Shown here: positions 2 to 44,495 of the stretch, in pieces
How positions within the stretch are numbered: position 1 is the first letter of the stretch
Layout: each line of letters starts with the position of its first letter
Origin: Longimicrobiales bacterium
Lineage (GTDB): Bacteria > Gemmatimonadota > Gemmatimonadetes > Longimicrobiales > Gaopeijiaceae
Assembly (NCBI GenBank): GCA_951813395.1
Contig: OX638356.1
Location: 1,467,340-1,531,339 of the forward strand
Direction: 5' to 3'
DNA: 64,000 nucleotides
Notes under the pieces: generated by a model
What the model saw: only the letters and a program-made list of their open reading frames with translations
What the model was told of the DNA's origin: nothing
Databases searched by the model: none
Made by a program: the position numbers and the translations under genes

Positions 2-373
2 CTGGGAACCGAGGTGAAGTCAATCCGCGCGGGCAAGCTGGCGTTTCAGGACGCGCACGCGCGGACCCAGGCGGGCGAAATGTGGCTGCACAACCTCCAC
101 GTGGCGCCCTACGAGGCCGGGAATCGCTGGAATCACGACGAGACCCGTCCGCGCAAGCTGCTGCTGAATCGCAACGAGATCCGGCGAATCACCGCGCGAG
201 CCGAGGAAAAGGGGCTCTCGATCATCCCCCTGGACGTCTATTTTCGCGGGGGCAGGGTCAAGGTCACGCTGGCGCTGTGCCGCGGCAGGAAGCACCGGGA
301 CCGGCGGGAGGCGTTGCGCCGCAGGACCATGGAGCGCGAGGCGGAGAGAGCGATGAAGGACCGAGGCCGGTGA
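2..373 (+). CDS. smpB: SsrA-binding protein SmpB, C-terminal part (gene starts before the window)
   Basis: SmpB binds tmRNA and delivers it to stalled ribosomes for trans-translation. The reading frame is open from base 2 (L-G-T-E-V-K-S), so the start lies upstream. Family signatures are visible: GTEVKSIRAGK near the left edge, then the EAGN/HDETRPRKLL region and IIPLDVYFRGG, ending in the basic tail (RGRKHRDRRE) that reaches into the decoding site. The stop TGA overlaps the GTG start of pyrD by four bases, so the two are probably translationally coupled. Identification is firm; only the N-terminus is missing. Confidence 0.95.
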   Translation: MGTEVKSIRAGKLAFQDAHARTQAGEMWLHNLHVAPYEAGNRWNHDETRPRKLLLNRNEIRRITARAEEKGLSIIPLDVYFRGGRVKVTLALCRGRKHRDRREALRRRTMEREAERAMKDRGR

Positions 374-1242
374 GCACGGCGCGCGAGGTGTTCGGCACCC
401 GCTTCGCCAACCCGGTGCTCATGGCCGCCGGCACCTGCGGCTTCGGCGAGCCGCTCATCGACGTCATGACCCCCGACGAGGTGGGAGGACTCGTGACCAA
501 GTCGGTCACGCTCGCGCCCCGGTGGGGAAACGCCCCGCCTCGCGTGGCCGAGTACCGGGGTGGAATGCTCAACTCCGTCGGTCTCGCGAATCCCGGATTG
601 AAGGGAGTCCGCGACCGGAAACTGCCCTGGATGCGGCGCCATCTCGGAGGTCTTCCCGTCCTGGTTTCGGTTGCGGGGGCCACGGTGGACGAGTACGACG
701 CGGTTGTCACGGGACTGGAGGAGGAGGACGGACTTGTCGGGTTTGAACTGAACCTCTCCTGCCCGAACGACGCCAATCTGCACGGGACGCCGTTCTGTCT
801 CGACGGCGATGCGATGCGCGAGGTGCTGGATCGCGTGCGGCGGCGGACCTCGCGCCCGCTGCTGGTCAAGCTGGCGCCGAACGATCCCGACATCGGCGCG
901 ACCGCGGCCCTGGCCGTGCGGCACGGCGCCGACGGCATCACGGCCATCAATACGCTCCCGGGACTGCTCAGCGACGCTGCCGGGAAGCCTCGGCTCGGGG
1001 CCGGCCAGGGCGGCGTGAGCGGCCCCGCGCTGCTGCCGGCCGGCCTGGCTGCGGTGCGGAAGGTCGTCGAGGCGGTGGACGTGCCGGTGGTGGGCGTGGG
1101 CGGGATTCTCACGGGCACGGACGCGGAAACCTATCTTGCCGCGGGCGCGTCGCTCGTACAGGTCGGGACCGGATCATTCGCGGATCCGCGTTGCGCCGGC
1201 AGGGTCGCGCGCCAACTCGCCATAAGGAGCTGGAGCTCGTGA
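370..1242 (+). CDS. pyrD: Dihydroorotate dehydrogenase, soluble class 1 type
   Basis: FMN enzyme oxidising dihydroorotate to orotate in pyrimidine synthesis. The frame is open further upstream, but GTG at 370 overlaps the smpB stop and gives a 290-residue protein of normal class 1 length with no membrane-anchoring N-terminus. Visible motifs are NLSCPN around residue 127, LVKLAPN, the NT of AINTLPG, and the FMN-phosphate loops GVGGILTG and VQVGTG. Class 1B enzymes pair with an electron-transfer subunit PyrK; no pyrK is in this window, so the subclass is unsettled. It is coupled to pyrF by a GTGA overlap. Confidence 0.93.
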   Translation: MSTAREVFGTRFANPVLMAAGTCGFGEPLIDVMTPDEVGGLVTKSVTLAPRWGNAPPRVAEYRGGMLNSVGLANPGLKGVRDRKLPWMRRHLGGLPVLVSVAGATVDEYDAVVTGLEEEDGLVGFELNLSCPNDANLHGTPFCLDGDAMREVLDRVRRRTSRPLLVKLAPNDPDIGATAALAVRHGADGITAINTLPGLLSDAAGKPRLGAGQGGVSGPALLPAGLAAVRKVVEAVDVPVVGVGGILTGTDAETYLAAGASLVQVGTGSFADPRCAGRVARQLAIRSWSS

Positions 1243-1934
1243 ACGACCGGGTGATCGTCGCACTGGACGCCTCGAGCGCCCAGCGTGCGCTGCAGCTGGT
1301 CGACCGCATCGGGCCGCGGTGCCGTTTCTACAAGGTGGGGCTCGAGCTCTACACGGCAGCCGGACCTGGGGTGGTGCGTGAACTGCGCGAACGGGGACAC
1401 GAGGTCTTTCTCGACCTCAAGCTGCACGACATCCCGAACCAGGTGGCGGGCGCGACCGCCAGGGCGGCCGAACTCGGGGTGACGTTCCTCACCGTGCATG
1501 CGATGGGGGGACGGGACATGCTGGCGGCCGCGGCCGCGGCGGCGAGGGGGTCGGTCGGGCTCCTGGGGGTGACCGTGCTGACGTCGCTCGAGGAGGAAGG
1601 GCTGGGCGCGGTGTTCGGGCGCAGCGTGCCGGACGTGGGCCGGGAGGCCGATCGCCTGGCGGCCATGGTGGGAGAGGCGGGGTTGGCCGGGGTCGTGTGT
1701 TCGGCGGCCGAGGCGGCGCGGCTGAGAGCCGGGATGGGTCCAGGCGGCGCCATCGTCACTCCGGGGATCCGGCTTGCCGGCGACGCGGTCCACGACCAGC
1801 GGCGCGTGCGGACGGCCGGCCAGGCATTCCAGGGCGGTGCCACCCACATCGTGGTGGGCCGCCCGGTGACCGGTGCTTCCGACCCGGCGGCGGCCTTCGC
1901 GCGCATCGTCGCGGACGCCCGCGACGGACGCTGA
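1239..1934 (+). CDS. pyrF: Orotidine 5'-phosphate decarboxylase
   Basis: Converts OMP to UMP, the last step of de novo UMP synthesis. GTG at 1239 overlaps the pyrD stop and sits behind AAGGAG at 1224-1229, so I prefer it over the longer frame. The 231-residue TIM barrel shows DASS near the N-terminus, the catalytic DLKLHDIPNQV at about residues 61-71 and the phosphate-binding VTPGIR and IVVGRPV near the C-terminus. pyrD-pyrF adjacency fits a small pyrimidine operon downstream of smpB. Confidence 0.95.
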   Translation: MNDRVIVALDASSAQRALQLVDRIGPRCRFYKVGLELYTAAGPGVVRELRERGHEVFLDLKLHDIPNQVAGATARAAELGVTFLTVHAMGGRDMLAAAAAAARGSVGLLGVTVLTSLEEEGLGAVFGRSVPDVGREADRLAAMVGEAGLAGVVCSAAEAARLRAGMGPGGAIVTPGIRLAGDAVHDQRRVRTAGQAFQGGATHIVVGRPVTGASDPAAAFARIVADARDGR

Positions 1935-1956
1935 CACGCGACACGACGCGTGCGCC

Positions 1957-1963
1957 TATATTT
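1957..1963 (+). promoter_or_regulatory. Possible -10 element upstream of cysS
   Basis: TATATTT lies in the 77-base gap after pyrF, about 50 bases before the cysS start. CTGACA at 1931-1936 is the only -35-like hexamer, with an over-long 20-base spacer. Similar TAnnTT boxes recur before several other transcription-unit starts here. Weak sequence-only prediction. Confidence 0.3.
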
Positions 1964-1975
1964 CACCACCCATAG

Positions 1976-2016
1976 CCCGCTGGACGCCGGAATGAACCCG
2001 CTGGACGCCGGATGAA
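1976..2016 (+). repeat. Short tandem duplication containing the cysS start
   Basis: Two copies of an approximately 20-base unit lie head to tail (1976-1996 and 1997-2016), differing by one inserted A. Each carries GCTGGACGCCGG followed by ATGAA. The first copy creates a 7-codon reading frame (M-N-P-L-D-A-G) from 1992 whose TGA overlaps the cysS ATG at 2012, so the duplication gives a minute upstream frame coupled to cysS. Confidence 0.7.
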
Positions 2017-3463
2017 ACTCTACGACTCGCTGCGCCGCGACACCTGCGGCTTCGTGCCGCTGAACCCGGGACGTGTCACCGTCTACGGCTGCGGACCGAC
2101 GGTGTACGACTTCGCTCACATCGGCAACTTCCGCGCCTTCATGGTATACGACCTGCTCCACCGCCACCTGAAGTGGCGTGGCTACGAGGTGGACTTCGTC
2201 GTGAACTTCACCGACGTTGACGACAAGACCATCGCCGGTGCGAGTGCGGCGGGACAGCGGCTTGCGGAGCACACCGCGCCCTTCGTCGAGGCATTTCGAG
2301 AAGATTCGCGGACGCTCGGATTCCTCCCGTTCTCGCGTCATCCGCGCGCGACCGGGTACATACCCGCCATGCTGGACTTTGTCGAGCGGCTCGTGCGGAG
2401 TGGCACCGCCTACCACGCCGCCGACGGTTCCGTCTACTACGACGTGTCGGCCTTCGGCGGCTACGGCCGCCTCTCCGGGAAGGGAACGGAGACCGGCACC
2501 GCGCGCTCGCGCATTGCGGCGGACGAGTACGAGAAGGGCGACTCCCGTGACTTCGCGCTCTGGAAGGCCGTGCAGCCGGGCGACCGGGAGGTGGGGGCGG
2601 TGTGGGATTCTCCCTGGGGGCCGGGCAGGCCGGGGTGGCACCTGGAGTGCTCGGTCATGGCCCGGGCCCTCCTGGGGGACACGATCGACATCCACCTTGG
2701 GGGCGAGGACCTGCTCTTCCCGCATCACGAGAACGAGATCGCGCAGTCGGAGGTGGCGACCGGCCGGCCGCTCGCGCGTTTCTGGATGCACGTGAAGCAC
2801 CTGAAGGTCGACGATCGCAAGATGTCCAAGTCGCTCGGGAACTTCCACACCGTGCGCGAGCTCGTCGACCAGGGCCATGATCCCGCCGCGATCCGCTGGG
2901 TGCTCCTGTCCGCCCACTACCGCAGCGAACTGAACTTCACGAGAGATGGGCTGGAGGACGCGACCAACTCGGTTCAGCGCCTGCTCGACCTCCGGCACCG
3001 CGTCCGGGAAGCGCCGACGGCACCCGGGCCGGGAGGGACACTGGCCGCCGTCGCGCGCGAACATCTCGCGGCGTTCGGCCGGGCGCTGGATCAGGATCTG
3101 AACGCGCCCCGCGCCATGGCCGCGCTGTGGGCGCTCGCGAGGGACGTCAACACGGGCCTCGACGGAGCCGGTGGCGGGATTGCGGGCGAGGACCGTGCCG
3201 AAGTGCTCACCGTGCTCGGCGAGATGGATGCGGTGCTCGGCATCCTGGACCTTGCCGCCGGCAGCCGCGAGGTCGGCGACGAGGCCGAGGAGTGGATCCG
3301 CCGGAGAGTGGAGGCCCGCAACCAGGCCCGCGCGCGGCGCGACTTCGAGACCGCGGACCGCCTCCGCGACGAGCTGGCGGCCGAGGGTGTGCAACTGGAG
3401 GACGGGCCGGAGGGTACGAGGTGGAAGCAGGTGCACGTCGGCACCTCCGCGAAGAGTGGTTGA
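2012..3463 (+). CDS. cysS: Cysteine--tRNA ligase
   Basis: Class I aminoacyl-tRNA synthetase charging tRNA-Cys. The 483-residue product has normal length. The Cys of YGCGPTVYD and Cys/His residues in LECSVM and FPHHENEIAQSE match the zinc and cysteine recognition site. HIGN at about residue 37 is the HIGH motif, and KMSKS at about residue 270 is the adenylate-activation loop. The C-terminal DALR-type helical region ends near ARNQARARRDFETADRLRD. The ATG at 2012 overlaps the stop of a 7-codon frame generated by a local duplication. Confidence 0.97.
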   Translation: MKLYDSLRRDTCGFVPLNPGRVTVYGCGPTVYDFAHIGNFRAFMVYDLLHRHLKWRGYEVDFVVNFTDVDDKTIAGASAAGQRLAEHTAPFVEAFREDSRTLGFLPFSRHPRATGYIPAMLDFVERLVRSGTAYHAADGSVYYDVSAFGGYGRLSGKGTETGTARSRIAADEYEKGDSRDFALWKAVQPGDREVGAVWDSPWGPGRPGWHLECSVMARALLGDTIDIHLGGEDLLFPHHENEIAQSEVATGRPLARFWMHVKHLKVDDRKMSKSLGNFHTVRELVDQGHDPAAIRWVLLSAHYRSELNFTRDGLEDATNSVQRLLDLRHRVREAPTAPGPGGTLAAVAREHLAAFGRALDQDLNAPRAMAALWALARDVNTGLDGAGGGIAGEDRAEVLTVLGEMDAVLGILDLAAGSREVGDEAEEWIRRRVEARNQARARRDFETADRLRDELAAEGVQLEDGPEGTRWKQVHVGTSAKSG

Positions 3464-3550
3464 CCCCGGCCGCGACTCGCCGCCGCAAGGATGGACCGGA
3501 CGGACGGGTCCACTTCCCTGCAGCCGGAATCGGAGGCAACTTTCCGAAGC

Positions 3551-3623
3551 GCTGACGTAGCTCAGTTGGTAGAGCAGCTGATTTGTAATCAGCAGGTCCG
3601 GGGTTCGAGTCCCCGCGTCAGCT
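3551..3623 (+). tRNA. tRNA-Thr (anticodon UGU)
   Basis: Cloverleaf of 73 bases. The acceptor stem GCTGACG pairs with CGTCAGC. The anticodon stem GCTGA/TCAGC encloses TTTGTAA with TGT at 3584-3586. The T loop is GTTCGAGTC. The 3' CCA is not encoded. First of four tRNA genes ahead of tuf. Confidence 0.97.
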
Positions 3624-3745
3624 TGTCCGATGGAAACCGACATTGATGCTCGTCGACCAAACAGTTATCTTTCTTTGCTCGTTTCCATCCGAGCCCGGGG
3701 ACGCCGACAGCCAGCTTGGCGGGCAGGGGTGGGAACGTGTTTTTT
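3624..3745 (+). promoter_or_regulatory. AT-rich spacer with inverted repeat and possible promoter
   Basis: This 122-base spacer between tRNA-Thr and tRNA-Tyr is clearly richer in A and T than its surroundings. GATGGAAAC at 3629-3637 is exactly inverted as GTTTCCATC at 3681-3689. Between the arms sit TTGATG (3643-3648) and TTATCT (3665-3670), 16 bases apart, a plausible -35/-10 pair reading toward tRNA-Tyr and tuf. A TTTTTT run ends at 3745. It could be an internal promoter, a processing structure or both. Confidence 0.35.
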
Positions 3746-31349: not shown

Positions 31350-31781
31350 ATGCTTATCGAGACCTTGCGGGCGGACCTTGCCACCGCCCGCCGTTCCAGG
31401 GACAGGGTTCGCACGCTCGTGCTTTCCACCACCCTGGCCGATGTACGAAACCGCGAGATCGAGTTGGGCACTGCTCTGGACGACGAGGGGGTTCAGGGGG
31501 TCATAGCCAGGGCAATCAAGCAGCGCCGTGACGCCGCGACTCAGATGACCGCAGGTGGAAGACCGGAACTCGCCGAGAACGAGCTGACGCAGGCGGGCGT
31601 TCTCCAGGACTACCTCCCCCCGGAGTTGACTCCCGCGGAGGTGCGCGACCTGGTCAGGGAGATCGTTGCCGAGAGCGGTCCCCACATGGGGGCGGTCATG
31701 TCGCGGCTGATGCCGCGCATTCGCGGCCGCTTCGATGGAAAGGCAGCCTCGGCGATCGTGCGCGAGGAGTTGAGCGGGTGA
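31350..31781 (+). CDS. GatB/YqeY domain protein
   Basis: 143 residues matching the YqeY family, related to the tRNA-binding tail of GatB; its cellular role is not settled. The N-terminus (LIETLRADLATARRSRDRVR) and the C-terminal GPHMGAVMSRLMPRIRGRFD and ASAIVREEL are typical. GGAGGGAG (31332-31339) lies about ten bases before the ATG. The 111-base gap upstream is shared with the divergent minus-strand gene. The stop overlaps the start of mutS2. Confidence 0.9.
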   Translation: MLIETLRADLATARRSRDRVRTLVLSTTLADVRNREIELGTALDDEGVQGVIARAIKQRRDAATQMTAGGRPELAENELTQAGVLQDYLPPELTPAEVRDLVREIVAESGPHMGAVMSRLMPRIRGRFDGKAASAIVREELSG

Positions 31782-34291
31782 TGACCGGCGCGCCGCCGGG
31801 ATCGTGTCCTCTCGCCCAATGGCGACGCGGGTGCTCGCCGGACGGGTGTTCGCCCTTTGGGTGCGCGTCGCGTTGCGCGGGCCCGGGGACGCCGCGGCGC
31901 CGGCAGACTGCAGTGTCTGCCCGCGCTCTTCAGGTCCTCGAGTTCGCGGAAGTGCTGGAGTATGTCGCGGGCTTTGCCTGCAGCGACGCCGGACGGCAAG
32001 CGGTCCTCGCGCTCGAGCCGTCCGTCGATCCGGAGACGGTTCAGACGCGATTGGCCGCGGTCGAAGAGGCCAGGCGCTTCCTCGCGCTGCGGGAGGCCTG
32101 GACGCTGCCCGGCTTTCCGGACGCCGGGCATGCGATCGGAAGACTCGCGGTGGAAGGCTCGGTGCTGTCGCCGCAGGAACTCCATGCGCTGGGGGAGCTG
32201 CTCACGGCCGGTCGCGTTTTGCTCGGGTCGCTGAACGAGAACGCGGCGAATCTTCCCACGCTGGCCGCGCTGGCGTCCCGGCTTCTCGAGGCGAAGGAGA
32301 TCGAAACAACGGTGGTAAGGACGGTTGACGCCGAAGGCGCCGTGCTGGACACCGCCAGCAGGGAGCTGAGGCGCATTCGCATGCGACTGAGCGGTGCCCA
32401 CAATCGCGTCGTGGCCCACCTGGAGCGGTTCCTCGATGGACTTGGCGAGCGCTATCGGGTTCCCGGTGCATCGGTCACGATCCGCGAGGGGCGCTACGTC
32501 ATCCCGGTGCGCCGCGAGGGCAAGCGGTCGGTCGGGGGATACGTGCACGATGAATCGGCGTCCGGAGCCACGGTGTTCATCGAACCATCGTCCGCGATCG
32601 AGATCATGAACGGTGTCCGGGAGCTGGAAAGGGCCGAGACCCGCGAGGTCGAGCGCATTCTGCGCCAACTCACCGACCGCTGCCGCCCTCTCGCCGTGGA
32701 ATTGGCCCGGTCGCTGGCCGCGCTTGCCGAAATGGACCGGCGAGTGGCCCTGGCACGCGCTGCGGAGCGGTGGAAGGGATCGGTCCCGGCAGTGGGCGAG
32801 GGCCCCGTGCGCATCCGTGGCGGCCGTCATCCCCTGCTGGTTGCGGCCGGGGTCGACGCTGTTCCCTTCGACCTCGACCTCGATCGCGACGAGAGCGTCG
32901 TCCTGGTCACCGGCCCCAACACAGGGGGCAAGACGGTTTTTCTGAAGTCGGTGGGATTGATCGCGAGCCTCGCGCAGGCAGGAGTCATACCACCCGTCGG
33001 GCCGGGCACCCGCCTGCCCGTCTTCCGTGGCATCTTCGCCGATGTCGGGGACGAGCAGTCCATTTCCGACAGCCTGTCCACGTTTTCCGCCCATCTCCGC
33101 AACCTGCAGGAGATCCTGCGGGATGCGGACGCGAACTCTCTGGTGCTGATCGACGAGCCCGGAACGGGAACCGACCCCAAGGAGGGTGAAGCGCTGGCCC
33201 GGGCGATCATCGAGACCCTGGCGGAACGCCGATGCGCGGCAGTGGTGACATCGCATCTGGGCGGCCTGAAGCGCCTCGCGGCGCCGGGCAACCGTATTGT
33301 AAACGCTTCGCTCCATTTCGATGGCGAGCGTCTGGCCCCCAGCTACCGTTTCTCGAAGGGACGGCCGGGGCGCAGCTACGGGCTCTCGATCGCGCGAGGA
33401 CTGGGGTTTCCACATGAGGTGCTGGATCGGGCCGAGCGATACCGCGACCGCGCCGACGCTCGCCTGGACGACCTGCTCGAGAGCCTCGAGGAAAAGGAGC
33501 GCCGCGTGGCCCGGGTGCTCGCCGAACTCGACGGGGAGCGGAAGCGGCTCACGAAGCTGGACGCGAAGCTCGACGCGCGCGTCGAGGACCTGCGACGGGT
33601 CGAGCGCCAGCAAGCCGCACGCGCGCGAACCGAGGCCCGCCGCCTGCTCCTGGATGCCCGCAAGGAGGTCGAGTCGGTCATAACCGGCCTGCGGGAGCGG
33701 GCGGTCGCCGGAGACTCGTTGAGAGAGGCCTCGAGAGCCGCGCGCCGCACCGTTGAGGAAGCGGCGCTGTCACTGCGGGATCCCATCCCGGAGACGACCG
33801 CGCCACCGGTCGGCGAGGTCGTGCTGGCCGAAGGAGCGAGGGTCCGCGTCGGGGCCGCCGGCGCGCTGGGAGAGGTCGTGGCGGTCGAGACGGATCGAGT
33901 CGTCGTCAACGTGGGCGGCGTAAGGATGAGAGTGGCCCCCCGGCGGCTGGTGCCGGCCGAGGCGGCGCGCGGCGAGGCGGACACGCGATCGGACGGGCGG
34001 ACATCCGGACCCGGCGGGGCGGGATCGTGGACCGCGCCCGACATCGAGCCGGTCACGGAGCTTGATGTGCGTGGCCTGCGGGCCGACGAGGCCGAGATGT
34101 CGCTCGCACGCGCACTGGATGCGGCCGCTGTGGCCGACCTTCAGGAACTTCGCGTGATACACGGCAAGGGAACCGGGGCGCTCCGTGCCCGAGTGGCGCT
34201 TGTGCTGGAACGTGATCCTCGGGTCGAGGGCTTCGAGTCGGCCAGGCCGGCGGACGGAGGCTACGGGGTCACCGTGGCGAGGATGCGGTAG
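31778..34291 (+). CDS. mutS2: Endonuclease MutS2
   Basis: MutS-like ATPase with an Smr nuclease domain; proposed roles are suppressing recombination and rescuing collided ribosomes. Walker A is GPNTGGKTVF (about residue 378), the signature is DSLSTFSAHL (about 430), Walker B LVLIDEPGTGTDP (about 455). A long coiled coil follows, and the Smr domain closes the protein (LDVRGLRADEAEMS; IHGKGTGALR). GTG 31778 or ATG 31781 follows GAGGAG and overlaps the yqeY stop, but yields about 45 Cys/Pro/Arg-rich residues before the usual ALQVLEF start. GTG at 31913 is the alternative. Confidence 0.93.
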   Translation: MMTGAPPGSCPLAQWRRGCSPDGCSPFGCASRCAGPGTPRRRQTAVSARALQVLEFAEVLEYVAGFACSDAGRQAVLALEPSVDPETVQTRLAAVEEARRFLALREAWTLPGFPDAGHAIGRLAVEGSVLSPQELHALGELLTAGRVLLGSLNENAANLPTLAALASRLLEAKEIETTVVRTVDAEGAVLDTASRELRRIRMRLSGAHNRVVAHLERFLDGLGERYRVPGASVTIREGRYVIPVRREGKRSVGGYVHDESASGATVFIEPSSAIEIMNGVRELERAETREVERILRQLTDRCRPLAVELARSLAALAEMDRRVALARAAERWKGSVPAVGEGPVRIRGGRHPLLVAAGVDAVPFDLDLDRDESVVLVTGPNTGGKTVFLKSVGLIASLAQAGVIPPVGPGTRLPVFRGIFADVGDEQSISDSLSTFSAHLRNLQEILRDADANSLVLIDEPGTGTDPKEGEALARAIIETLAERRCAAVVTSHLGGLKRLAAPGNRIVNASLHFDGERLAPSYRFSKGRPGRSYGLSIARGLGFPHEVLDRAERYRDRADARLDDLLESLEEKERRVARVLAELDGERKRLTKLDAKLDARVEDLRRVERQQAARARTEARRLLLDARKEVESVITGLRERAVAGDSLREASRAARRTVEEAALSLRDPIPETTAPPVGEVVLAEGARVRVGAAGALGEVVAVETDRVVVNVGGVRMRVAPRRLVPAEAARGEADTRSDGRTSGPGGAGSWTAPDIEPVTELDVRGLRADEAEMSLARALDAAAVADLQELRVIHGKGTGALRARVALVLERDPRVEGFESARPADGGYGVTVARMR

Positions 34292-34293
34292 CC

Positions 34294-36120
34294 ATGATCC
34301 CCGACGACGTGGTAGCGGAAGTCAAGGCGCGCGCCGACATCGTGGGCGTGATCGGCGAGTTCGTTCAACTCAGGAAGGCGGGCAGGGAGTTCCGCGGACT
34401 CAGTCCGTTCAAGAAGGAAAAGACGCCCTCCTTCTACGTGAACCCGGCCAAGGCGTTTTTTCACGACTTTTCTTCCGGTGAATCGGGGGACGTATTCTCG
34501 TTCCTGATGAAGCACCAGGGGATGAGCTTCGTCGACGCAGTCAAGTACGTCGGAGCTCGCAGCGGCGTCGAAGTGCGGGAAATCAGGCGAGGGCAGGGAC
34601 GCGAGGACCCGTGGCGCCCCTACTACGAGGCGTCCGCCTACGCGAACACGTTCTTCCAGGAACGCCTCTGGGAGTGGGAGGGCGGTCAGCGCGCACGCGC
34701 ATACCTCGAGGAACGGGGCATCGGCCGCGAGTCGGGTGAAGACTTCGGCCTCGGATACGCCCCCGACGATTGGAGGGCCTTTCGCGAGGCGGCGGCGGTG
34801 CACGGCCTGGACGAGAGAATCCTGCTGGACGTCGGGCTACTCAAGAAGAGCGAGAAGAGCGACGATCCGTACGACGCGTTCAGGAACCGCATCATCTTCC
34901 CGATCGAGTCCGAATCGGGACGCGTGCTGGCGTTCGGCGGGAGACTGCTGGGTCGCACCGGCAAGGGGGCGCCCAAGTACCTCAATTCGCCCGAGAGCCC
35001 GATCTTCCAGAAAGGCGAGATCCTGTACGGGCTGCGCAAGGCTCGCAACCACATCCGTCGCAACGGGTCCGTCATGGTGGTGGAAGGCTTTACGGACGTC
35101 GTGTCCCTGGCAAGTGTCGAGGTGCGCAACGTAGTCGCGCCCCTGGGGACGGCGATGACCGAAGCGCACGCCGGACTCCTGCGACGATACACGAAGCAGG
35201 TGCGGCTTCTGTTCGACAGCGATCCGGCGGGACAACGCGCGACCTTCCGTGCCGCCGACATCCTTCTCGGCCAGGGGCTCCATGCTTCGGTGGTGACGCT
35301 GCCCGACGGCGAGGACCCCGATTCGGTGGCACGTTCGGGAGGCGCGGAGGCCATCCGGGAGTTCGTCTCCCAGGCGGTGGACGTCCTCGACCGCAAGATC
35401 GCGATGCTGGAGGAGCGGGACTACTTCGGCTCGATAGAAAAGACGCGGCGGGCTCTGGACCGGCTCCTGCCGACCGTGCGGTCCGTGACCGATCCCCGGC
35501 TCCGCGACATCTACATCGCCAGGGTGGCCGAGCGGACCGGCGTGCGTCCCGAGACTCTGGCGAAGGAAATCGGGCAGCGGGCCGCAACGCCGGCCACTGC
35601 GACGCGTCGGGATTACCGTCGGCGTGGCCGCGTCCCTCCGAGCCCGACCGGCATGGGGCCGGAACAGGAGCTGCTGCGGCTGATGCTCCACCACCGCGGC
35701 TGGGTCGGGAAGGTGGCCGAAAGCGTGGGGCCCTCCGATTTGGCGGATGGCGCGGATCGTGTGATCTTCGAAGGGTTGATCGCCGATCCCGACCTGGTCG
35801 CATTGCCGGAAGGGGCATCGCCGGAGGCCGTGCGTCGTTTTGAGCAACTGGAAGCGGATCCGGGGATGGCACATGAGTTGGAACAGGTCTTCGCGGACGT
35901 GCTGGCCAGGATCCTGACCAAGGTCATCAATCGGCGAATGGACGTTGTGCGGGCCCGATTGCATTCCGCAGCGGACCACCAGGAGAAGGTCCAGCTGACC
36001 AGTGACCTGGAGGAACTTCGCAGAGAGAAGGCGGCTCTGCCCGGGGCCGATTGGAGCGGGTCCGCAAGAGCGTTGGTGAACATCGGAAAGACTCAAAGGA
36101 AGAGAGAAGGCACACAGTGA
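34294..36120 (+). CDS. dnaG: DNA primase DnaG with degenerate zinc-binding domain
   Basis: Makes RNA primers for replication. The N-terminal domain aligns well with DnaG (KAGREFRGLSPFKKEKTPSF, then HDFSSGESGDVFSFLM), but the four zinc ligands of E. coli (C40, H43, C61, C64) are S37, K40, D58 and S61 here. The TOPRIM core is intact: VVEGFTDVVSLAS, LFDSDPAGQRATFRA, LPDGEDPDSVAR. A C-terminal helicase-interaction region follows (PEQELLRLMLHHRGW). 608 residues, near normal length. It sits three bases after mutS2, and its stop overlaps the next GTG start. Confidence 0.94.
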   Translation: MIPDDVVAEVKARADIVGVIGEFVQLRKAGREFRGLSPFKKEKTPSFYVNPAKAFFHDFSSGESGDVFSFLMKHQGMSFVDAVKYVGARSGVEVREIRRGQGREDPWRPYYEASAYANTFFQERLWEWEGGQRARAYLEERGIGRESGEDFGLGYAPDDWRAFREAAAVHGLDERILLDVGLLKKSEKSDDPYDAFRNRIIFPIESESGRVLAFGGRLLGRTGKGAPKYLNSPESPIFQKGEILYGLRKARNHIRRNGSVMVVEGFTDVVSLASVEVRNVVAPLGTAMTEAHAGLLRRYTKQVRLLFDSDPAGQRATFRAADILLGQGLHASVVTLPDGEDPDSVARSGGAEAIREFVSQAVDVLDRKIAMLEERDYFGSIEKTRRALDRLLPTVRSVTDPRLRDIYIARVAERTGVRPETLAKEIGQRAATPATATRRDYRRRGRVPPSPTGMGPEQELLRLMLHHRGWVGKVAESVGPSDLADGADRVIFEGLIADPDLVALPEGASPEAVRRFEQLEADPGMAHELEQVFADVLARILTKVINRRMDVVRARLHSAADHQEKVQLTSDLEELRREKAALPGADWSGSARALVNIGKTQRKREGTQ

Positions 36121-36866
36121 CCGTCAACAACGGGCCGATCTCCAGTCGCATGCTGGAGCTGCAAACCCTCGACCAGAACATCCGCCGGACCCGGGACCGC
36201 ATCGATTCCTTCGGGCCGTTGCTGGAAGAGGTCGAGGAACCGGCCGTCCGATTGGCCGGCGAGGCCGAGGTGGCCGCGACCAAGGTGAGAGAACTCGAGC
36301 TGGAAGAGCGCCGGTTGCGCCTGGCGGCGGAGGAGAAGCGGGTACGCGTGCACCGTCTGGAGGATCGCCTGAATCTGGTCAGGACCGTGCAACAGGAGGC
36401 GGCGGTGCAGGCCGAACTCGGGCTGGTGCGGCGGGCCCTGGACCAGGAGGAGCAGGAGGTAATCAACCTCCTGGACCAGATCGCGAGATTCCAGGGCCGC
36501 CTGGAGGAGTTGCAGGCGGCCATGGACGACGCCCGCCTGGCGGTCGAGCCGCGCAGGAACGAGATCCTGGCGGAGCAGGAGGCCGCCGAGGCACAGGTGG
36601 CCTCGATGCAGGTGCAACGCGACAGCTTTGCCGAGGGAATCGATCCCCGCTACCGGCGCGTGTACGACAATCTGATCAGAGGCGGCCGCCGCGTTGCGGT
36701 CGCGCCGATGACAGCGGACGGAGCCTGCGGCTGCTGCTACTCCGTCATACCCCTGCAGGTTCAGAACGAGATCCGGGCTCACGCGCCGCTGGTGCTCTGC
36801 GAAGGCTGCGGCGTGATCGTGACGGGCCCGACGGCTGACGCCGAGACCGAGAGCGTAAGCGGGTAG
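36117..36866 (+). CDS. Coiled-coil zinc-ribbon protein (zf-RING_7 / CT398-like family)
   Basis: 249 residues. GTG at 36117 overlaps the dnaG stop. Most of the protein is a long charged coiled coil (ELQTLDQNIRRTRDRIDSF; LEEVEEPAVRLAGEAE; DQEEQEVINLLDQI). The C-terminus is a zinc ribbon with CGCCYS and CEGCG. Proteins of this build are common next to housekeeping genes in many phyla; their function is unclear, with a Chlamydia member reported to bind sigma-54 and secretion proteins. No more specific role can be read here. Confidence 0.8.
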   Translation: MTVNNGPISSRMLELQTLDQNIRRTRDRIDSFGPLLEEVEEPAVRLAGEAEVAATKVRELELEERRLRLAAEEKRVRVHRLEDRLNLVRTVQQEAAVQAELGLVRRALDQEEQEVINLLDQIARFQGRLEELQAAMDDARLAVEPRRNEILAEQEAAEAQVASMQVQRDSFAEGIDPRYRRVYDNLIRGGRRVAVAPMTADGACGCCYSVIPLQVQNEIRAHAPLVLCEGCGVIVTGPTADAETESVSG

Positions 36867-43320: not shown

Positions 43321-44494
43321 TAGTGTAGTGTCCCGTAAGTATCTTGCCATAATAGAGAAGATCGGGTATCATTCCTCTCATCCACCCGAACGAGGAAGAT
43401 ATCATGCCCAGGGGACGTCCGTTGAAAGCGCTCGAAGTCAGCCGGGGCGCCCGTGAGGAACTCGAGTCGCTGGTGCGTTCGCGCAGCCTGCCCGCCGGGC
43501 TCGTCCGCCGTGCCGAGATCGTGCTTCTGTGCGCCGATGGGTTGGACAACCAGGCGGTCGCCGAGAGGGTCCGCACCAGCCGCCAGACGGTCGGCAAGTG
43601 GCGCGAGCGCTTCCGAACCCAGGGCCTCATGGGCCTGTACGACGAACGCAGGCCGGGAAAGCCTCGTTCCATCGAAGACGACGAGGTCATGGTGCTGCTG
43701 AGGAAGACGCTCGACACCCGGCCTCCCGATGGCAGCACGCACTGGAGCTGCCGCTCCATGGCCGAGGCGGCGGGGCTGTCGAAGTCCACGGTCCACCGCG
43801 TGTGGACGGCGTTCAACCTCCAGCCCCACCGGCAGAAGCACTTCAAGCTCTCCACCGACCCGTTCTTCGCCGAAAAGGTCCGCGACATCGTCGGCCTCTA
43901 CCTCAACCCGCCGGAGGGCGCGATGGTGCTCTGCGTGGACGAGAAGAGCCAGACCCAGGCGCTGGAGCGAACCCAGCCTCTGCTGCCCCTCGGGCTCGGA
44001 TACGTCGAGGGCGTCACACACGGCTACATCCGTCACGGCACGACCACCCTCTTCGCCGCCCTGGACGTCGCCACCGGCCAGGTTCTCGCCCAGTGCAAGG
44101 CGCGGCATCGCCACCAGGAGTTCCTGAGCTTCCTCCGGCACATCGACGCCAACGTGCCCCCAGACCTGGATGTCCACCTCGTCGTCGACAACTACGGCAC
44201 CCACAAGCACGCCAAGGTCAAGCGCTGGCTCGCCACCCGGCCACGCTACCACATCCACTTCACCCCCACCTACTCCTCCTGGATCAACCAGGTCGAGATC
44301 TGGTTCAACATCATCACCCAGAAGGCCATCCGCCGCGGCTCCTTCTCCTCGGTCACCCAGCTCAAGGAGAAGATCCTCCGCTTCACCGACCAGTACAACC
44401 CCGGTGCCCAGCCGTTCATGTGGACCGCCACCGCAGACTCCATCCTCCAGAAGATCCAGAGACTATGTACAGCTATCTCTGGGACACAACACTA
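43321..44494 (+). mobile_element. IS630-type insertion sequence, apparently intact
   Basis: The ends are TAGTGTAGTGTCCC (43321-43334) and its inverted partner GGGACACAACACTA (44481-44494), matching at 13 of 14 positions. The outermost TA on each side fits the TA target duplication typical of the IS630/Tc1 group, giving an element of 1170 bases between the TAs. It carries one uninterrupted transposase gene. Inserted between the PP2C gene and rsmA, it ends four bases before the rsmA ATG. Near-identical ends and an intact gene suggest a recent arrival. Confidence 0.9.
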
Positions 44495-44495
44495 G
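43404..44495 (+). CDS. IS630-family transposase
   Basis: 363 residues. The N-terminal helix-turn-helix region includes LDNQAVAERVRTSRQTVGKW and a second one near SCRSMAEAAGLSKSTVHRVW. The DDE catalytic core has CVDEKSQ (Asp about 179), LVVDNYGTHK (Asp about 262) and PTYSSWINQVEIWF (Glu about 298), a D-x35-E spacing normal for the group. No frameshift or internal stop. The stop TAG is made from the outermost base of the right terminal repeat region and the flanking TA plus G. Likely functional. Confidence 0.95.
   Translation: MPRGRPLKALEVSRGAREELESLVRSRSLPAGLVRRAEIVLLCADGLDNQAVAERVRTSRQTVGKWRERFRTQGLMGLYDERRPGKPRSIEDDEVMVLLRKTLDTRPPDGSTHWSCRSMAEAAGLSKSTVHRVWTAFNLQPHRQKHFKLSTDPFFAEKVRDIVGLYLNPPEGAMVLCVDEKSQTQALERTQPLLPLGLGYVEGVTHGYIRHGTTTLFAALDVATGQVLAQCKARHRHQEFLSFLRHIDANVPPDLDVHLVVDNYGTHKHAKVKRWLATRPRYHIHFTPTYSSWINQVEIWFNIITQKAIRRGSFSSVTQLKEKILRFTDQYNPGAQPFMWTATADSILQKIQRLCTAISGTQH

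Follow-up and report, generated by a model that had tools for sequence, protein, structure and literature searches.

A DnaG primase clade in Longimicrobiales with serine, lysine, aspartate and serine at the four zinc-ligand positions

Results

The dnaG locus and identification of the protein

The window analysed here, a 64,000-nucleotide stretch of the genome of a Longimicrobiales bacterium, contains an open reading frame at 34294-36120 on the forward strand that encodes a DnaG-type DNA primase of 608 residues. The gene follows mutS2 (31778-34291). The next gene, at 36051-36866, encodes a coiled-coil protein that carries a C4 zinc ribbon, and recJ comes after it. A DDE_3-type transposase gene lies at 43404-44495 of the window, amid otherwise housekeeping genes.

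The protein scores 406.7 bits against the NCBIfam dnaG model TIGR01391 (cut-off 283.6), which covers residues 1-414, and the Pfam matches follow the canonical domain order. The N-terminal zinc-ribbon-type domain (Zn_ribbon_DnaG, PF01807 over residues 3-95; domain taken as residues 1-95, 34294-34578, forward strand, as are all features of this gene) is followed by the N-terminal part of the RNA polymerase domain (DNAG_N, residues 120-251, 34651-35046), the TOPRIM domain (residues 262-345, 35077-35328) and a DnaB-binding region (PF10410, residues 380-419, 35431-35550), the last being a partial match of 26.9 bits, with the final ~180 residues matching no model. The initial annotation described the TOPRIM domain as normal, and this is borne out by its acidic catalytic residues Glu264, Asp268, Asp308 and Asp310, which are invariant across all 26 clade and 52 relative sequences described below. 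By profile matches and genome search this is the single DnaG of the genome. We assign it as the housekeeping primase of a Longimicrobiales clade that has not been cultured, with primer synthesis as its predicted role.

All four zinc-ligand columns are changed

The initial annotation had noted that all four zinc ligands of DnaG are replaced in the segment 34384-34500, corresponding to residues 31-69. Alignment and structural modelling confirm this: Ser37 (AGT, 34402-34404), Lys40 (AAG, 34411-34413), Asp58 (GAC, 34465-34467) and Ser61 (TCC, 34474-34476) occupy the columns of zinc ligands 1 to 4, which are identified as Cys40, His43, Cys61 and Cys64 because the structural model pairs residues 1-98 with residues 4-101 of the B. 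stearothermophilus zinc-binding domain (1d0q). Nor do neighbouring residues appear to take over the site. The entire protein contains no cysteine, and the nearest histidine, His57 (CAC, 34462-34464), lies beside rather than at the site and is a lysine in one clade member, so that no substitute Cys/His site is present. Tested as a CHC2 zinc finger, the domain has S-K-D-S in every clade member where Cys-His-Cys-Cys is expected, and we class the protein as a DnaG, on the basis of its ancestry and domain composition, and not as a zinc finger.

The change is clade-wide and arose once

When related genomes were aligned at the four columns, S-K-D-S was found in every one of the 26 clade genomes, which belong to an uncultured group of Longimicrobiales (Gemmatimonadota) comprising four genera: 23 genomes from the genus of the window and one from each of three neighbouring genera (G053, G054 and G075). 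The occurrence of the identical four residues in 26 of 26 genomes excludes chance or an assembly error. The habitats of the clade are presumably mostly sponge and marine, as sample names suggest. Elsewhere in the order, 52 distinct DnaGs were read and each carries C-H-C-C; no intermediate between the two states was seen among the DnaGs read. About 60 further members of the order were matched by domain search with the four columns unread; their domain identity to the query is at most 67%, compared with at least 79% inside the clade, which is consistent with the zinc type. Further losses had been suspected in other families of the Gemmatimonadota from low Pfam scores, and the 20 DnaGs read from those families all have Cys-His-Cys-Cys.

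In a tree of dnaG built without the zinc domain, a single change suffices to account for the distribution, with a support of 99 for the clade branch. Across residues 1-430, the fixed differences between the 26 clade and the 52 relative sequences are at residues 37, 40, 58, 60 and 61, with a weaker site at 346. Residue 60 is thus fixed along with the ligand columns: Ser60 (TCT, 34471-34473) is present in 26 of 26 clade members, and the zinc-type relatives have glycine (44), valine (5) or threonine (3). We therefore read the substitutions C37S, H40K, C58D and C61S, with G60S, as the replacement of the zinc site as a unit in the clade ancestor, followed by fixation.

The domain itself has since been strongly conserved. 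When the polymerase domains are equally diverged, identity in the N-terminal domain is 0.82 within the clade and 0.70 among zinc-type DnaGs. By simple counting, with synonymous sites partly saturated and with the zinc-type set the more diverged, dN/dS within the clade comes to 0.071 in the zinc domain, compared with 0.167 in the polymerase domain. No part of the clade DnaG evolves more slowly than the zinc-ribbon-type domain, which is under strong purifying selection. This conservation, the dN/dS values and the invariance of the replacement residues show no decay after the change, and the domain and its new residues therefore appear to be needed.

The ribbon fold is predicted to persist

An AlphaFold2 model of the domain, computed from 96 aligned domains including zinc-type relatives, gives a ribbon with a mean pLDDT of 89. 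It matches 1d0q with an rmsd of 0.9-1.3 Å (Z 16.1), and 2au3, the Aquifex primase, is matched as well. A model from the 25 zinc-less rows alone has residues 26-64 below pLDDT 50. Retention of the ribbon fold by the zinc-less domain is therefore likely, but homology-based, because the alignment behind the confident model contains zinc-type DnaGs. Of the earlier proposal that the fold is kept without metal, the first half is thus supported by prediction; the zinc-free state is the reading that we favour.

No other replicative primase was found in the clade

The initial annotation reported no second primase gene in the window, and the same holds for the whole genome, a single contig of 4.09 Mb, in which profile searches return one Zn_ribbon_DnaG and one DNAG_N match and no match to the PrimPol family PF09250. 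Each clade genome, complete ones included, has one DnaG. A PF01896 match (G000:C1:2172971-2173330, L290) corresponds to the polymerase domain of LigD, a repair ligase; this domain is patchily distributed and missing from 15 of the 22 further clade genomes searched, which argues against LigD as a replacement primase. There is no general loss of zinc sites in the clade, since LigA, RecR and RpoC keep their zinc cysteine sets. A loss of the LigA zinc finger, hinted at by a short PF03119 model, was discarded, as four cysteines are present in every LigA sequence read. With all four ligands replaced, the only DNA-priming enzyme found in the clade very probably works without a zinc ion.

Similar losses occur in Methylobacterium and in phages

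Losses of the zinc site were first seen among viral DnaGs and then confirmed in named records. The Methylobacterium bullatum dnaG, in the YqeY-dnaG-rpoD locus usual for this gene (L270:2162-4120), has S-N-C-S, and the copy on the megaplasmid of M. extorquens AM1 has S-Q-C-S. Among phages, the Caulobacter phage Sansa primase (L275) has S-T-C-S, the Flavobacterium phages laban6-1 and 1H (L276, L284) have S-V-D-S and S-T-D-S, and Cellulophaga phage Ingeline (L277) has S-V-C-S; the whole phage-borne set, which includes some IMG/VR contigs, has one of these combinations or S-S-C-S or S-Q-D-S. Those of these other zinc-less DnaGs that were checked against the curated dnaG model all pass it. Every zinc-less case has serine in ligand columns 1 and 4 as well as at residue 60, and the other two columns vary; these independent losses share the pattern SPFx...[D/C]FSS. 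The Pfam label on the Methylobacterium and phage domains remains CHC2 zinc finger.

Discussion

The metal in zinc-type DnaGs ties together a pair of loops where the ribbon ends, and the DnaG-type zinc site has been described as needed for template reading and for domain stability. We propose, with a probability of about 0.78, that in the clade DnaG this site has been replaced as a unit by side chains that hold a metal-free ribbon, and that the domain continues to serve priming. The ribbon fold would be kept without metal, and the two loops formerly tied by zinc would probably be joined by an ion pair of Lys40 with Asp58, facing each other where the histidine and cysteine met the zinc, and by hydrogen bonds from Ser37, Ser60 and Ser61; both kinds of contact are guessed from the side chains that pointed towards the metal. 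The domain would then present the template to the polymerase domain as elsewhere, and primers would therefore be made as in other DnaGs. Lys40 is absent from the other zinc-less lineages, which have Asn, Gln, Thr, Ser or Val at this column, and Asp58 is found in only some of them, so the proposed Lys-Asp pair would be peculiar to this clade and not a general requirement. Counting against our proposal, zinc-motif mutants of the T7 primase lose template recognition, as far as the work of Mendelman (1994) is summarised in PMC6163395.

Apart from the ligands, the window enzyme resembles the canonical DnaGs of B. stearothermophilus (1D0Q), A. aeolicus (2AU3) and E. coli in domain order, TOPRIM residues, predicted ribbon and single copy, and differs from them in having S, K, D and S for the four zinc ligands. 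The housekeeping DnaG of M. bullatum is an independent loss that shares C37S, G60S and C61S, yet it retains the third cysteine and has asparagine where the window has lysine. The phage-borne DnaGs have the same pattern at the zinc site, but are phage genes rather than the cell's own primase and have other residues at column 2 and, in part, at column 3. Many chromosomal DnaGs of Flavobacteriia and Hyphomicrobiales probably also carry SPFx...[D/C]FSS. It is conceivable, and we put it forward tentatively, that zinc-free DnaGs form a recurrent class of functional primases, found in Longimicrobiales, Hyphomicrobiales and Bacteroidota-associated genomes, which have converged on this pattern and follow a template rule of their own.

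A possible but less favoured alternative is that the job of the domain has changed, so that initiation has a relaxed or new specificity, with another template trinucleotide or none. In known DnaGs it is this domain that reads the template (PMC6163395), and residue 57, a candidate specificity residue adjoining ligand column 3, is histidine in 25 of 26 clade members and lysine in 38 of 52 zinc-type relatives; in the alignment to 2au3 it falls opposite a lysine of the Aquifex primase. The position is suggestive because, in the C. difficile primase, a Lys-to-His change at the corresponding residue moves the preference from CCC towards CTA (PMC5204125). The link is loose, however, since one clade member keeps Lys57. 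Also counting against this alternative, the other candidate DNA-contacting basic residues (Lys28, Lys/Arg31, Lys43 and Lys53) are unchanged. The preferred start trinucleotide may have shifted.

It is improbable that the domain instead binds another metal, or zinc in a different manner, through Asp58, His57, Glu63 or Asp66. Asp58, Glu63 and Asp66 are indeed invariant in the clade, but Glu63 and Asp66 are common in zinc-type relatives too, His57 varies within the clade, a ligand position is taken by Lys40, and there is no cysteine anywhere in the protein to contribute.

Acquisition of a zinc-less domain from an alphaproteobacterium or a phage, by horizontal transfer or gene conversion, we regard as very unlikely. 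The core motif GLSPF..EKTPSF...FSSG is similar to the Methylobacterium motif, but once the changed columns are set aside the domain shares 65-74% identity with those of zinc-type Longimicrobiales and only 45-53% with any other zinc-less DnaG found, and the tree of the remaining gene places the clade within the order. Among viral sequences, no close relative of the domain was found. Horizontal transfer is largely refuted by the comparison of domain identities; gene conversion of a very short tract of ~25 codons is conceivable. Because the domain is nearest to the zinc-type domains of its own order outside the ligand columns, convergence in place, and not transfer, is indicated.

Least probable of all is a decaying N-terminal domain that is bypassed in priming, as in animal Twinkle, which sets a precedent for loss of the zinc motif (three of four zinc cysteines missing and priming lost; PMC7231222) and is the third fold match of our model, since in the clade DnaG this domain evolves slowest within the enzyme, the replacement and catalytic residues are invariant, and neither another replicative primase nor a consistently present LigD polymerase domain was found to take over.

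In the open-access literature searched we found no description of a zinc-less cellular DnaG; such sequences have long been present in databases. Animal Twinkle comes closest among the cases described: its primase-type N-terminal domain likewise lacks zinc cysteines (PMC7231222), but its primase activity is lost, whereas the catalytic residues of the window DnaG and the selection acting on it are intact. Our preferred reading, a metal-free ribbon in a working primase, concerns a natural, single-copy cellular DnaG whose family also includes zinc-type sisters, and such a protein offers a way to separate the role of the metal in the fold from the role of the domain in choosing the start site. It also cautions against scoring primases as inactive from the absence of motif I cysteines and against directing inhibitors at the zinc site, since both will fail in some lineages.

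Two genomes with additional DnaG-type sequences were encountered among those surveyed. G142, a Longimicrobiales metagenome-assembled genome, has two differing full-length DnaG-type genes (L096 and L097) with zinc ligands intact, reflecting either duplication or contamination, and G130 has, besides its main dnaG, three partial DnaG zinc-domain matches within 3.7 kb of contig C10 (bases 5-3657), perhaps part of a mobile element.
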